Shown here in pieces: positions 46,978 through 50,922 of a stretch of 64,000 bases of DNA. Positions within the stretch are counted from its first letter, which is position 1. Every line of letters begins with the position of its first letter. The notes beneath the pieces were generated by a model. It was not told the origin of the DNA, ran no database searches, and saw nothing but the letters and a program-made list of their open reading frames with translations. A program made the translations under genes and the position numbers. The DNA is taken from positions 3,720,001-3,784,000 of the forward strand of contig NZ_CP014209.1 of assembly GCF_001636295.1 (NCBI RefSeq). Direction: 5' to 3'. Source of the stretch: Isoptericola dokdonensis DS-3. GTDB taxonomy: Bacteria > Actinomycetota > Actinomycetes > Actinomycetales > Cellulomonadaceae.

Positions 46978-49130
46978 GCACCGCGCCCGACACGGACGCG
47001 CAGGTCGTCCTCCCGCAGGCCGACCTCGACTACCACGCGCTCAACGCGATGCTCAACCTCTACGGACCGGACGGCAAGATCCAGTTCGACAAGGACCGCG
47101 AGGCGGCCTCCGCGTACTTCCGGCAGCACGTCCTGCCGAACACGATCGAGTTCGACACGCTCGACGCCAAGCTCGACCACCTTGTCGAGAACAAGTACTA
47201 CGACCCGGCCGTGCTGGACAAGTACTCCCGGGCCTTCGTCAAGGAGCTGTTCCAGCGCACCTACGCCGCCGGGTTCCGCTTCGAGTCGTTCCTCGGCGCG
47301 TTCAAGTACTACACGTCGTACACGCTGAAGACGTTCGACGGGAAGAAGTACCTGGAGCGCTTCGAGGACCGCGTCTCCATGGTCGCGCTCGGCCTGGCCG
47401 ACGGCGACGAGCAGATGGCCCGCGACATCGTCGACGAGGTCATCGCCGGCCGATTCCAGCCCGCCACCCCCACGTTCCTCAACGTCGGCAAGGCGCAGCG
47501 CGGCGAGCCCGTGTCCTGCTTCCTGCTGCGCATCGAGGACAACATGGAGTCCATCGCGCGCGGCATCAACTCCGCGCTGCAGCTCTCCAAGCGTGGCGGC
47601 GGCGTCGCCCTGCTGCTCAGCAACGTGCGCGAGCACGGCGCGCCCATCAAGCACATCGAGAACCAGTCGTCCGGCGTCATCCCCGTGATGAAGCTTCTCG
47701 AGGACTCCTTCTCGTATGCCAACCAGCTCGGGGCGCGCCAGGGCGCCGGCGCGGTGTACCTGCACGCGCACCACCCCGACATCATGCGGTTCCTCGACAC
47801 CAAGCGGGAGAACGCGGACGAGAAGATCCGCATCAAGACCCTCTCGCTCGGCGTGGTCATCCCGGACATCACGTTCGAGCTGGCCAAGCAGAACGCCGAC
47901 ATGCACCTGTTCAGCCCGTACGACGTCGAGCGCATCTACGGCAAGCCGTTCGCGGACATCTCCGTCACGGAGAAGTACGACGAGCTCGTCGCCGACGACC
48001 GGATCCGCAAGACCACGATCAAGGCGCGCGACTTCTTCCAGACGATCGCCGAGCTCCAGTTCGAGTCCGGCTACCCGTACGTCATGTTCGAGGACACGGT
48101 GAACCGCGCCAACCCCATCGAGGGTCGCATCACCCACTCGAACCTGTGCTCCGAGATCCTCCAGGTCTCCACGCCGTCGACGTTCCACGAGGACCTGTCC
48201 TACGACCACGTCGGCCGGGACATCTCCTGCAACCTCGGCTCGCTGAACATCGCCAGGACGATGGACTCCCCGGACTTCGGCCGGACCATCGACACCGCGA
48301 TCCGCGCGCTCACCGCCGTGTCCGACCAGACCAGCATCGAGTCCGTGCCGTCGATCAAGCGGGCCAACGAGCTCGGGCACGCCATCGGCCTCGGTCAGAT
48401 GAACCTGCACGGCTACCTCGCGCGCGAGCGGATCCACTACGGCTCCGACGAGGGCGTCGACTTCACCAACATCTACTTCTACACCGTCGCCTACCACGCG
48501 ATCGCGGCCTCCAACCGCCTCGCCAAGGAGCGCGGCCGCGCCTTCGGCAGCTTCGCCACCTCCACGTACGCGACCGGCGAGTACTTCGACAAGTACACCG
48601 ACCGCGTCTGGGAGCCGGCCACCGAGCGCGTCGCCGCCCTCTTCGCGGACGCCGGCGTGCACATCCCCACGCAGGACGACTGGCGCGAGCTCAAGGCGTC
48701 CGTCATGGAGCACGGCATCTACAACCAGAACCTCCAGGCCGTGCCGCCCACCGGCTCCATCAGCTACATCAACCACTCCACGTCGTCGATCCACCCCGTC
48801 GCCGCGAAGATCGAGATCCGCAAGGAGGGCAAGCTCGGGCGCGCGTACTACCCGGCGCCCTTCATGACGAACGACAACCTGGAGTACTACCAGGACGCGT
48901 ACGAGATCGGCTACGAGAAGATCATCGACACCTACGCGGCGGCCACCCAGCACGTCGACCAGGGCCTGTCGCTCACGCTGTTCTTCCCGGACACCGTCAC
49001 CACCCGCGACGTCAACAAGGCGCAGATCTACGCCTGGCGCAAGGGCATCAAGACGCTCTACTACATCCGGCTCCGTCAGCTCGCGCTGGAGGGCACGTCC
49101 GTGGAGGGTTGTGTCAGCTGCATGCTGTAG
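46935..49130 (+). CDS. nrdE: Class Ib ribonucleotide reductase, large subunit
   Basis: The 731-residue catalytic subunit reduces ribonucleoside diphosphates to deoxy forms. Active-site residues are visible: the cysteine of [11 protein letters not shown], the N-x-C-x-E motif in [10 protein letters not shown] and the partner cysteine in [10 protein letters not shown]. The C-terminus ends CVSCML, the shuttle pair reduced by NrdH. There is no N-terminal ATP cone, as expected for class Ib. The start is ATG 46935 or TTG 46947, both inside nrdI; the second has GGATGGGG at better spacing. The stop TAG sits nine bases before the inserted endonuclease gene. Confidence 0.96.
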
Positions 49131-49139
49131 GGATTGGTC

Positions 49140-49913
49140 ATGGCGACGCAGCTTCCAGGCAGGCAGAGGCCCGTGGGAATCATCTACGGCATCCGACTCA
49201 AGGACTCGAACGAGTACCGGTACATCGGACTGACGACCTGGAGTTCGTCGCGTCGCTTGCGGCGACACCTCAGCAATGCACGAGCCGGCCGGAAGACCCC
49301 GTACTACGACTGGCTGCGCAAGCATCAGGAGGACGTGGTGGTCGACCAGCTCTACACCGAGCGCGAGAGCCTGACGAGGCTCGGGGAAGCTGAGATCCTC
49401 TGGATCGCCGCACTGCGTGCCGAGGGCCATCGGCTGCTCAACCTCTCCGCCGGTGGGCTCGGGCCCACCGGCGTGGTGTGGACCGACGAGATGCGCGAAG
49501 CCGCAAGGCAGCGGTCGACCGGACGGAAGGGAGTGAGCAGGCCCGGGCCGCTCGGGCCCTTCTACGGGATGCAGCACACGCCGGAGCAGAGGGCGAAGTG
49601 GTCGCGGGACCGCAAGGGAACGTTCGTCGGTCCCGCGAACCCGAACTACGGGAAGTTCGGCGAGGACCACCCGAGCTTCGGGCACACCATGTCGCCCGAG
49701 TCGCGTGCGGTGCTCTCAGAGATGCGCCGCGGCGAGCGGAATCCGAACTTCGGGAAGAAGGCGAGCCCGGAGACGCGCGCGAAGATGTCCGCCGCGCAGA
49801 AGGGCGTGCCCAAGCCGTCGAGCGCCCGGAGCGCTCACACTCGGTACCACACGAACCAAGGCCGTACGAGCCCTACCTGCAAGTTCTGTATCTCGGACGC
49901 GCAGAGCAACTGA
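49140..49913 (+). CDS. Freestanding GIY-YIG homing-type endonuclease with NUMOD repeats
   Basis: The 257-residue protein sits between nrdE and nrdF. Residues 13-106 form a GIY-YIG nuclease domain: GIIYGI (13-18), YIG (28-30), the arginine region RRLRRH (38-43), acidic residues in GEAEILWIAAL (83-85) and the closing LLNLSAGG. Residues 139-222 carry three NUMOD3-like DNA-binding repeats of the form P-x-(Y/F)-G-x4-P-E-x-R (GPFYGMQHTPEQR, HPSFGHTMSPESR, NPNFGKKASPETR). The C-terminus has H233-x3-H237 and CKFC (247-250), a possible zinc site of the kind seen in actinophage endonucleases. Codon use differs from its neighbours (several AGG, GGA, CGA, AAT, CTT), which suggests transfer. The start is coupled to nrdE: AGGGA overlaps the nrdE stop. 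Nothing looks broken. Confidence 0.88.
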   Translation: MATQLPGRQRPVGIIYGIRLKDSNEYRYIGLTTWSSSRRLRRHLSNARAGRKTPYYDWLRKHQEDVVVDQLYTERESLTRLGEAEILWIAALRAEGHRLLNLSAGGLGPTGVVWTDEMREAARQRSTGRKGVSRPGPLGPFYGMQHTPEQRAKWSRDRKGTFVGPANPNYGKFGEDHPSFGHTMSPESRAVLSEMRRGERNPNFGKKASPETRAKMSAAQKGVPKPSSARSAHTRYHTNQGRTSPTCKFCISDAQSN

Positions 49914-49941
49914 CGCGTCGACCTGAAGGAGACGACCTGGC

Positions 49942-50922
49942 ATGGCACCCACAGGGAAGCTGAAGCTCATCGATCGCGTCAGTGCGATCAACTGGAACCG
50001 CGTGCAGGACGAGAAGGACCTCGAGGTCTGGGACCGGCTCGTCGGCAACTTCTGGCTGCCCGAGAAGGTGCCGGTGTCGAACGACATCCAGTCGTGGAAC
50101 ACCCTGTCGGACGCCGAGAAGCTCATGACGACCCGGGTGTTCACGGGGCTGACGCTGCTCGACACCATCCAGGGGACCGTCGGCGCCGTCTCGCTCATCC
50201 CGGACGCCCTCACCCCGCACGAGGAGGCGGTGTACACCAACATCGCGTTCATGGAGTCGGTGCACGCCAAGAGCTACTCCTCGATCTTCTCCACCCTGAT
50301 CTCCACCAAGGAGATCGACGCCGCGTTCGCGTGGTCCGAGGAGAACCCGTACCTGCAGCGCAAGGCCGAGATCGTCCTCGAGTACTACCGCGGCGACGAC
50401 CCCCTCAAGCGCAAGGTCGCCTCGACGATGCTCGAGTCGTTCCTCTTCTACTCCGGATTCTTCGCGCCCATGTACTGGTCGAGCCGCGCCAAACTCACCA
50501 ACACGGCCGACCTCATCCGCCTCATCATCCGCGACGAGGCCGTGCACGGGTACTACATCGGCTACAAGTTCCAGAAGAGCCTCGCGAAGCTCACGCCGGC
50601 CGAGCAGGACGAGATGAAGGCCTACACCTTCGACCTGCTCTTCGAGCTCTACGAGAACGAGGTCGAGTACACCGACTCCCTGTACGGAGAGCTCGGCCTC
50701 ACCGAGGACGTCAAGAAGTTCCTGCGCTACAACGCCAACAAGGCCCTCATGAACCTGGGCTACGAGGCGCTGTTCCCCAAGGACGAGACCGACGTCAACC
50801 CGGCCATCCTCGCCGCGCTCAGCCCCAACGCCGACGAGAACCACGACTTCTTCTCCGGCTCGGGCTCGTCCTACGTCATCGGCAAGGCCGTCGAGACCGA
50901 GGACGACGACTGGGACTTCTGA
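49942..50922 (+). CDS. nrdF: Class Ib ribonucleotide reductase, small subunit
   Basis: The 326-residue subunit carries the dimetal-tyrosyl radical cofactor. Metal-ligand helices are visible in [17 protein letters not shown] and [18 protein letters not shown], and the acidic C-terminal tail ending TEDDDWDF is the peptide that docks on NrdE. ATG 49942 follows GAAGGAG. It is 28 bases from the endonuclease stop rather than next to nrdE, so its expression depends on read-through across the inserted gene. Confidence 0.96.

Follow-up and report, generated by a model that had tools for sequence, protein, structure and literature searches.

Why does a complete nuclease gene stand between nrdE and nrdF, the subunit genes of a class Ib ribonucleotide reductase, on the chromosome of Isoptericola dokdonensis DS-3? 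The window analyzed here is a stretch of 64,000 nucleotides (nt) from that chromosome (NZ_CP014209.1, positions 3,720,001 to 3,784,000), and the gene in question encodes a protein with a GIY-YIG nuclease domain and NUMOD3 DNA-binding modules. Comparison of bacterial and viral sequences leads us to suggest, with a probability of about 0.87, that it is a freestanding, intronless homing endonuclease gene specialized on the 3' end of class Ib nrdE. A preliminary description of the window had reported an intact gene of this kind between nrdE and nrdF. The reading frame is indeed whole, and Pfam and PHROGs agree on its identity (table 1); the span then given, 49128..49942, covers the gene but is not itself one reading frame.

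Site and distribution of the endonuclease gene

The location of the gene is constant among its close relatives. After removal of repeats, 45 distinct bacterial copies were found (15 from the family of the window, 19 from Arthrobacter, 6 from other members of the order, and 5 from named species, L005-L009), in genera that include Isoptericola, Arthrobacter, Sinomonas, Leucobacter, Nocardia, Mycobacterium, and Rhodococcus. All 45 are located directly 3' of a class Ib nrdE (15 of 15 in the family, 19 of 19 in Arthrobacter, and 6 of 6 in the order). The gene, which had been called unusual for a bacterial chromosome, is not a one-off, and its site is not the nrdE-nrdF junction as such. The copy in Nocardia (L006) has no nrdF within the 5 kb fetched downstream of the endonuclease; behind the copy in a Mycobacterium bin (L007), TetR-like and monooxygenase-like frames (named by eye) come first, and nrdF follows at 4.5 kb. 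Because these two copies lack an adjacent nrdF, the anchor is the 3' end of nrdE.

Presence of the gene is patchy. In whole-genome searches with cut-offs of 1e-20 or 1e-15, which leave more distant relatives outside the counts, carriers were 15 of 221 genomes in the family, 12 of 396 in a sample of the order, and 19 of 150 in Arthrobacter (genus g26). Genus g26 is called Arthrobacter here on the strength of two loci that match contigs of named Arthrobacter. Related species do not all carry the gene: in the genus of the window, it is present in 2 of 18 genomes, 16 of which gave an nrdE match. Cellulomonas had been suggested for comparison, but Isoptericola is the likelier genus, as a 600-nt stretch of G135, from the genus group of the window, recurs exactly in Isoptericola cucumis. 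The endonuclease family is rare overall, as the only carrier among 396 genomes sampled evenly across the phylum is the window itself. Ten relatives were recovered by a pattern-limited scan across 84,980 genomes of named species. Eight, at 55-80% identity, are all directly 3' of nrdE (three are repeat genomes already counted elsewhere), and two distant ones (36% and 29%) have no nrd gene in the fetched stretches. A search of 72,556 plasmid records yielded Bacillus NUMOD3 proteins at 30% and no family member. Of the 45 bacterial copies, three are broken by stops or a frameshift, possibly representing a decay stage of a homing cycle. They are L009 (Rhodococcus marinonascens), L142 (G634), and L164 (G1090; L165 is a fragment of the same gene), and L164 and its nearest empty relative have about 18 nt after the nrdE stop in common.

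Viral copies occupy the same site. A first viral search returned 14 contigs, of which ten have a relative at 40% identity or more, in 10 of 10 cases directly behind nrdE. These ten include near-copies (L033 and L034 are exact over a 600-nt stretch; L032 and L035, with the same NrdE match figures, are probably another such pair), and L027 (84%) is probably, and L028 may be, bacterial. Neighbors in L029, L031, and L032 (the last a contig of 158.6 kb) are phage-type: virion or tail proteins, RNA ligase, exonuclease, thymidylate synthase, and MazG. The isolated Arthrobacter phage Talia1610 has the order nrdH-nrdI-nrdE-endonuclease-nrdF, with an endonuclease 33% identical to the window protein, and its relatives Racecar, Mimi, and Atuin from the same host species are without the gene. 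A second scan of the same viral collection gave 42 loci. Besides the ten contigs above, these comprise 32 with identities of at most 39%; no class Ib nrdE was found in the fetched flanks of these 32, and L269 has a weak NrdE-like match (25%) about 2.2 kb off. Related genes (32-35%) are also present in Gordonia phages GMA2 and Sixama, whose fetched stretches have no annotated nrdE. In Sixama (L139, 3501-4172), the GIY-YIG gene (32%) immediately precedes genes for thymidylate kinase and thymidylate synthase, and because of this placement, distant relatives may target other genes of nucleotide metabolism.

Alleles without the gene exist at the same site in the phages Racecar, Mimi, and Atuin and in bacterial genomes, among which G141 is nearest to the window. 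An empty allele and exact insertion boundaries had been sought. In G141, DNA identity of 94-95% with the window extends as far as the nrdE stop and returns where nrdF starts. Wherever sister alleles were compared, the insert replaces most or all of the intergenic DNA. In 83 of 89 empty Arthrobacter alleles, the nrdE-nrdF gap has a hairpin with a perfect arm of at least 10 bp (for example, GTACGACGGCGGG...CCCGCCGTCGTAC in the set L166-L255), and no such hairpin is present in the first 60 nt after nrdE in any of the 19 carriers. The hairpin may set the NrdE:NrdF ratio. One empty Arthrobacter allele (L171) has an unusually long gap of 611 nt and a different hairpin, perhaps reflecting another insertion at the same place.

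Turnover and the changed end of nrdE

Empty alleles compared numbered 86 in the family (191 of 221 genomes gave an nrdE match) and 89 in Arthrobacter (146 of 150 gave nrdE), picked by genus and nearness in the nrdE listing rather than at random. Repeat genomes L055, L059, and L066 (those of L013, L017, and L014) were dropped from the tail, family footprint, nrdF-side, Ser-codon, neighbor, Mantel, and tree counts, and L181 (the genome of L157) was dropped after the first Arthrobacter footprint count. Locus L021 (G156), with nrdE matches in two frames of a fragmented assembly, was left out of the family footprint, nrdF-side, Mantel, and nrdE-body tree analyses; its nrdE looks frameshifted, likely through an assembly error. 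The locus of the window itself (L041), with too little of its nrdF in the sequence set, was left out of the nrdF-side test. Broken copies L142 and L164 were excluded from the endonuclease tree, the Mantel tests, and the ratio of nonsynonymous to synonymous substitution rates (dN/dS). Trees left out L002 (the same as L013) and L035; the endonuclease tree and the NrdE comparison tree also left out L003, L004, L009, L027, and L036, and the latter alone left out L030.

Carriers and empty alleles are interleaved. On a tree of the nrdE body from 208 genomes with 33 carriers, 31 changes are needed by a quick method and 23 are forced by supported branches, and shuffled labels need 31.2 on average; with empties chosen partly for nearness, this count describes interleaving and not rates. 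In trees of the endonuclease, family groups are mostly together, but the family of the window is split, needing 4 label changes versus 1 for NrdE, and the copies from Nocardia and Mycobacterium nest with Sinomonas. Long phage branches leave phage placement unsure. The median dN/dS is 0.12 over 131 pairs with dS below 1.2 (0.105 in Arthrobacter and 0.29 in the family), values that show purifying selection on the endonuclease gene.

The last codons of nrdE differ between carriers and empty alleles. Among family carriers, identity to the nearest empty relative is 0.814 in the last 60 nt of nrdE versus 0.973 in the preceding 60 nt (n = 14). For empty alleles compared with their nearest empty, the last 60 nt score 0.907 (n = 82; Mann-Whitney U test, p = 2e-6; Wilcoxon test, p = 5e-4), and the excess change in carriers falls about 45 to 10 nt before the stop. 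In Arthrobacter, 19 carriers score 0.854 and 89 empties 0.907 (p = 1.8e-5), and the excess change falls in the last 27 nt. A tail motif, GAAAATTG, first noticed in the family (7 of 15 carriers, 0 of 86 empties) and afterwards checked in Arthrobacter, is present there in 9 of 19 carriers and 1 of 89 empties. A TCN-type Ser codon in the tail characterizes 16 of 19 Arthrobacter carriers versus 28 of 89 empties (p = 4e-5). Relative to G141, one codon in the tail of the window differs at all three bases, TCC for GAA; in the family, 4 of 15 carriers and 1 of 86 empties have this Ser variant. Across 23 independent sister pairs, GAAAATTG changes with the gene in 8.6 and against it in 0, and a GAA codon in 13.5 versus 0.2.

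These tails follow the endonuclease rather than the gene to which they belong. By the last 45 nt, the nearest neighbor of a carrier is another carrier in 21.1 of 34 cases, versus 4 of 34 by the nrdE body and 9.6 of 34 by the best of 30 upstream 45-nt windows. Partial Mantel correlations of tail with endonuclease distance given the body are 0.24 (p = 0.04; 14 carriers) and 0.22 (p = 0.02; 17 carriers); given the endonuclease, the tail does not follow the body, and a control segment shows the opposite pattern. On the nrdF side, the start region in Arthrobacter scores 0.726 in carriers versus 0.959 (p = 6e-10; this "first 30 nt" comprises 6 nt of upstream DNA and 24 nt of nrdF), and the windows at 30-60 and 60-120 nt differ as well (p = 0.002 and 0.003).

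On the nrdE side, the pair of Talia1610 and its empty relative Racecar is the cleanest case. Their nrdE genes have 23 mismatches in the last 92 nt versus 15 in the other 2038 (p = 2e-23), zero from 723 to 128 nt before the stop, and six at 127-106; differing codons in the last 120 nt include 14 synonymous and 3 that are not. Their nrdF genes have an excess of mismatches over the first 280 nt and another over the last 350. A pattern expected of co-conversion is consequently apparent on the nrdE side in both bacterial sets and the phage pair, and on the nrdF side only in Arthrobacter.

Homing and its alternatives

We propose that the protein recognizes nrdE alleles without the gene, binding at their final codons or next to them, where it would cut. 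Repair of the break would then draw on an allele that has the gene, with matching sequence in nrdE and in the downstream gene as the guide. By this route the recipient would gain the endonuclease gene and the last nrdE codons of the donor (about 9-15 in the bacterial sets and 30-40 in the phage pair), recipients in Arthrobacter would also gain the first nrdF codons, and the old intergenic DNA would be lost at insertion. Both nrdE and nrdF would stay whole, with the endonuclease read within the operon by way of an AGGGA stretch in the window and an ATGA overlap in many relatives. Spread is predicted to be mostly among close relatives and sometimes further, and some copies would decay. The sequences compared show a constant site, alleles without the gene, replacement of intergenic DNA, flanks that change with the gene, patchiness, purifying selection, and broken copies; DNA cutting, the cut site, zinc binding, and the route of entry into cells are what we infer. 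The earlier suggestion of a mobile homing element in related strains and phages gains support from the empty alleles, patchy presence, mostly intact frames, and apparently converted flanks, and homing that would act on bacterial chromosomes as well as in phages is the best reading.

Several observations weigh against this reading. Drops of at least 0.1 at the end of nrdE, seen in 9 of 14 family carriers, also occur in 14 of 82 empty alleles, and the TCN Ser codon is marginal in the family (10 of 15 carriers versus 33 of 86 empties, p = 0.051). The footprint of the window itself is mild (0.917 in the last 60 nt versus 0.968 across the first 1200 of 1440 compared nt). The nrdF side has no changed tract in the family (13 carriers, window excluded, p = 0.12), and in the phage pair it is not clear-cut because the last third of nrdF is divergent too. 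The more two carriers differ in nrdE, the more their endonucleases differ as well (r = 0.82 and 0.88), and the partial Mantel correlations of the tail are of modest size. The cut site may also be elsewhere, because freestanding enzymes of phage T4, in excerpts of a published account (PMC2988022), cut hundreds to thousands of base pairs from their genes.

Three alternatives, namely a regulatory role, loss after vertical descent, and selection on codons by itself, are each poorly matched by at least one test. Part of the tail change could reflect selection for translating the new gene. If selection for weakly structured mRNA where that gene begins were the whole cause, movement of the gene would be left to ordinary homologous recombination of the operon. 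Tails of family carriers are AT-richer, as this would have it (G+C content at third codon positions [GC3] of the last 15 codons, 0.81 versus 0.94). Nevertheless, the tail tracks the endonuclease once the nrdE body is removed and the control segment does the reverse, an amino acid change is common to carriers too (Asn before CVSC in 25 of 34 versus 30 of 175 empties), and the phage tract extends at least 92 nt upstream, making the explanation improbable. Domestication as a regulator encoded in the operon, which would bind in the vicinity of nrdE, adjust NrdE:NrdF output, and no longer move, has a precedent in I-TevI, which can act as a repressor. It would account for purifying selection, the overlap with the nrdF start in 8 of 9 displayed sister pairs, and loss of the intergenic hairpin. 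It does not predict a traveling nrdE tail, the gene is uncommon and as scattered on the nrdE tree as shuffled labels, the presumed catalytic residues are invariant, and broken copies exist; we therefore consider it very improbable. Ancient vertical inheritance with massive independent loss and no homing would explain the correlation between endonuclease and nrdE-body distances, but only 1 of 175 empty alleles has the GAAAATTG tail, so clean loss is not the usual history of empties. The split of the family in the endonuclease tree, the nesting of Nocardia and Mycobacterium copies with Sinomonas, and the difference between Talia1610 and Racecar, which fits gain with a converted flank, likewise oppose it, and we give this history almost no credence.

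Homing at the nrdE 3' end could have a wider form, in which one endonuclease lineage shuttles between chromosomes and phages by way of their common class Ib nrdE dock. Host copies would cut nrdE of incoming phages, phage copies would seed hosts, and each copy would bring its own CxxC-encoding tail; host copies would then provide local marker exclusion, a defense-like effect. We hold this extension to be possible though doubtful. Similarity between phage and host at the nrdE tail is not unusual: ranked among 28 windows, the last 45 nt of Racecar, Atuin, Talia1610, and Zooman come 14th, 20th, 15th, and 27th in comparison with every fourth of the 89 empty Arthrobacter alleles (23 in all). With such unremarkable ranks, phage-to-host homing is unsupported by local identity.

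The protein, its operon, and known systems

Matches of the window protein to Pfam at E up to 1 are NUMOD3 (E = 1.5e-15; 57.2 bits versus a cut-off of 20.4), which gives it a modular DNA-binding region, and GIY-YIG (E = 4.1e-5, above the cut-off), with neither HNH nor T5orf172; its PHROGs match is homing endonuclease (E = 7.7e-18). A TTG start at 49134 is likewise open. Three NUMOD3-like repeats had been described and are visible by eye (residues ~139-160, 166-199, and 201-222), where Pfam gives a single stretch. In an alignment of 14 bacterial and viral rows, Y16, Y28, G30, R39, E85, and N101 are invariant, N101 being just past the domain, and there is no loss of key GIY-YIG residues that would speak against a recent mobile homing element. 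The GIY...YIG motif is accompanied by presumed catalytic Arg, Glu, and Asn, the residues named as catalytic in GIY-YIG enzymes in excerpts of PMC2988022 and matched to R39, E85, and N101 by our own assignment of positions. As for the possible His2-Cys2 zinc tail, its four residues are invariant across the 14 rows, and the C-terminal HxxxH...CxxC could bind zinc. A structure predicted from 14 sequences (mean predicted local distance difference test score, 75; predicted template modeling score, 0.42) has a confident N-terminal block of strand-strand-helix-helix-strand-helix, the order expected of GIY-YIG, followed by separate helices (148-158, 186-197, and 210-220).

Foreign codon use, also proposed earlier, is borne out: GC3 is 0.868 in the endonuclease gene versus 0.978 in nrdE and 0.976 in nrdF, AGG occurs at 23 per 1000 codons versus 1.4 and 0, and GGA and CGA are enriched as well. 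Coupling to nrdE holds in that the AGGGA overlaps its stop. The gene is the single endonuclease match in the 3.83-Mb genome, and the window nrdE is the only nrdE-type match at E 1e-50 and the sole match, below the cut-off, to the class II model NrdJ_Z (class III was outside the search). Both nrdE and nrdF are uninterrupted, and the endonuclease is in no intron or intein. A group I intron was rejected, as the one Rfam match (E = 1) is to an unrelated small RNA far below the gathering score, and an intein was rejected given the uninterrupted nrdE; NCBIfam TIGR01453, for group I intron endonucleases, scores 42.3 bits, below its cut-off of 56.05. The endonuclease stop is 28 nt from the nrdF start in the window; in the eight overlapping sister pairs the two join as ATGA, and the ninth copy is broken.

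Among known systems, T4 MobE is similarly intergenic, intronless, and beside ribonucleotide reductase genes, but it is an HNH enzyme at nrdA/nrdB, in contrast to a GIY-YIG/NUMOD3 gene at class Ib nrdE/nrdF. More broadly, the seg and mob endonucleases of T4 are intergenic, move by intronless homing, and co-convert flanks, according to excerpts of PMC2988022; unlike them, the present family is mainly on bacterial chromosomes, with the changed tract right beside the insert. I-TevI of T4, the sole match in a sequence search of the PDB (a weak profile match to its DNA-binding domain, 1i3j; E = 0.041), also combines a GIY-YIG domain with beads-on-a-string DNA-binding modules. However, it belongs to a group I intron, and its zinc finger is in the linker (PMC2988022, in excerpt), whereas the zinc-like motif here is C-terminal. 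Bacillus, cyanobacteria, and phages are reported to have group I introns and inteins, as well as endonucleases, within their nrd genes or between them, and T5orf172 endonucleases occur near phage ribonucleotide reductase genes (PMC3653736, PMC3984707, and PMC10448857). These elements have the same kind of target genes, but introns and inteins interrupt coding sequence and splice. No description of the present nrdE-linked endonuclease family was found among titles and displayed abstracts of open-licence articles in PubMed Central.

Intronless homing is best known from T-even phages (PMC2988022, in excerpt), and a 2014 review, in the portion available, sees little evidence of horizontal intron movement among bacterial species (PMC3984707). 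The freestanding nrdE element offers footprints of such horizontal movement among bacteria. Its insertions are many and alternate with empty species, and in this Isoptericola genome it occupies the operon of the sole nrdE/nrdJ-type reductase found. Alleles that are empty, occupied, or broken form a natural series in which gain, flank conversion, and loss are datable, and strain pairs suit tests of homing. The target region encodes the conserved C-terminal CxxC tail of NrdE, whose function constrains change by the host, and this tie may explain why the target has difficulty mutating away. Characterized members could add long-site GIY-YIG nucleases to the toolbox.

Table 1. Coordinates of features at the nrdE-endonuclease-nrdF locus of the window
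Feature	Position	Strand	Remarks
nrdE, class Ib ribonucleotide reductase large subunit	46935..49130	+	731 amino acids from chosen start; stop TAG 49128-49130
nrdE last 45 nt, tail going with the endonuclease gene in carriers	49083..49127	+	TCC Ser here versus GAA Glu in nearest empty relative
AGGGA ribosome-binding-like stretch overlapping nrdE stop, plus short spacer	49129..49139	+	Sequence
Insert relative to empty allele	49131..49941	+	811 bp versus 241 bp of unrelated intergenic DNA in G141
GIY-YIG/NUMOD3 freestanding homing endonuclease gene (proposed)	49140..49913	+	257 amino acids; ATG start; TGA stop 49911-49913; Pfam, PHROGs
GIY-YIG nuclease domain	49173..49418	+	Residues ~12-93; Pfam, invariant residues, predicted fold block
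Three NUMOD3-like DNA-binding repeats	49554..49805	+	Residues ~139-222 by eye; Pfam match at 181-217
Putative zinc tail HxxxH...CxxC	49836..49889	+	H233, H237, C247, C250; invariant in 14 rows
nrdF, class Ib small subunit, right-hand flank	49942..50922	+	ATG at 49942

Other genes also occupy the space between nrdE and nrdF. Microbacterium phages Zooman (L136, 5313-5927), Pumpernickel (L137, 5315-6763), and Cece (L138, 5233-6474) have hypothetical genes there, and because of these, the nrdE-nrdF junction may be an insertion hot spot beyond the endonuclease family.

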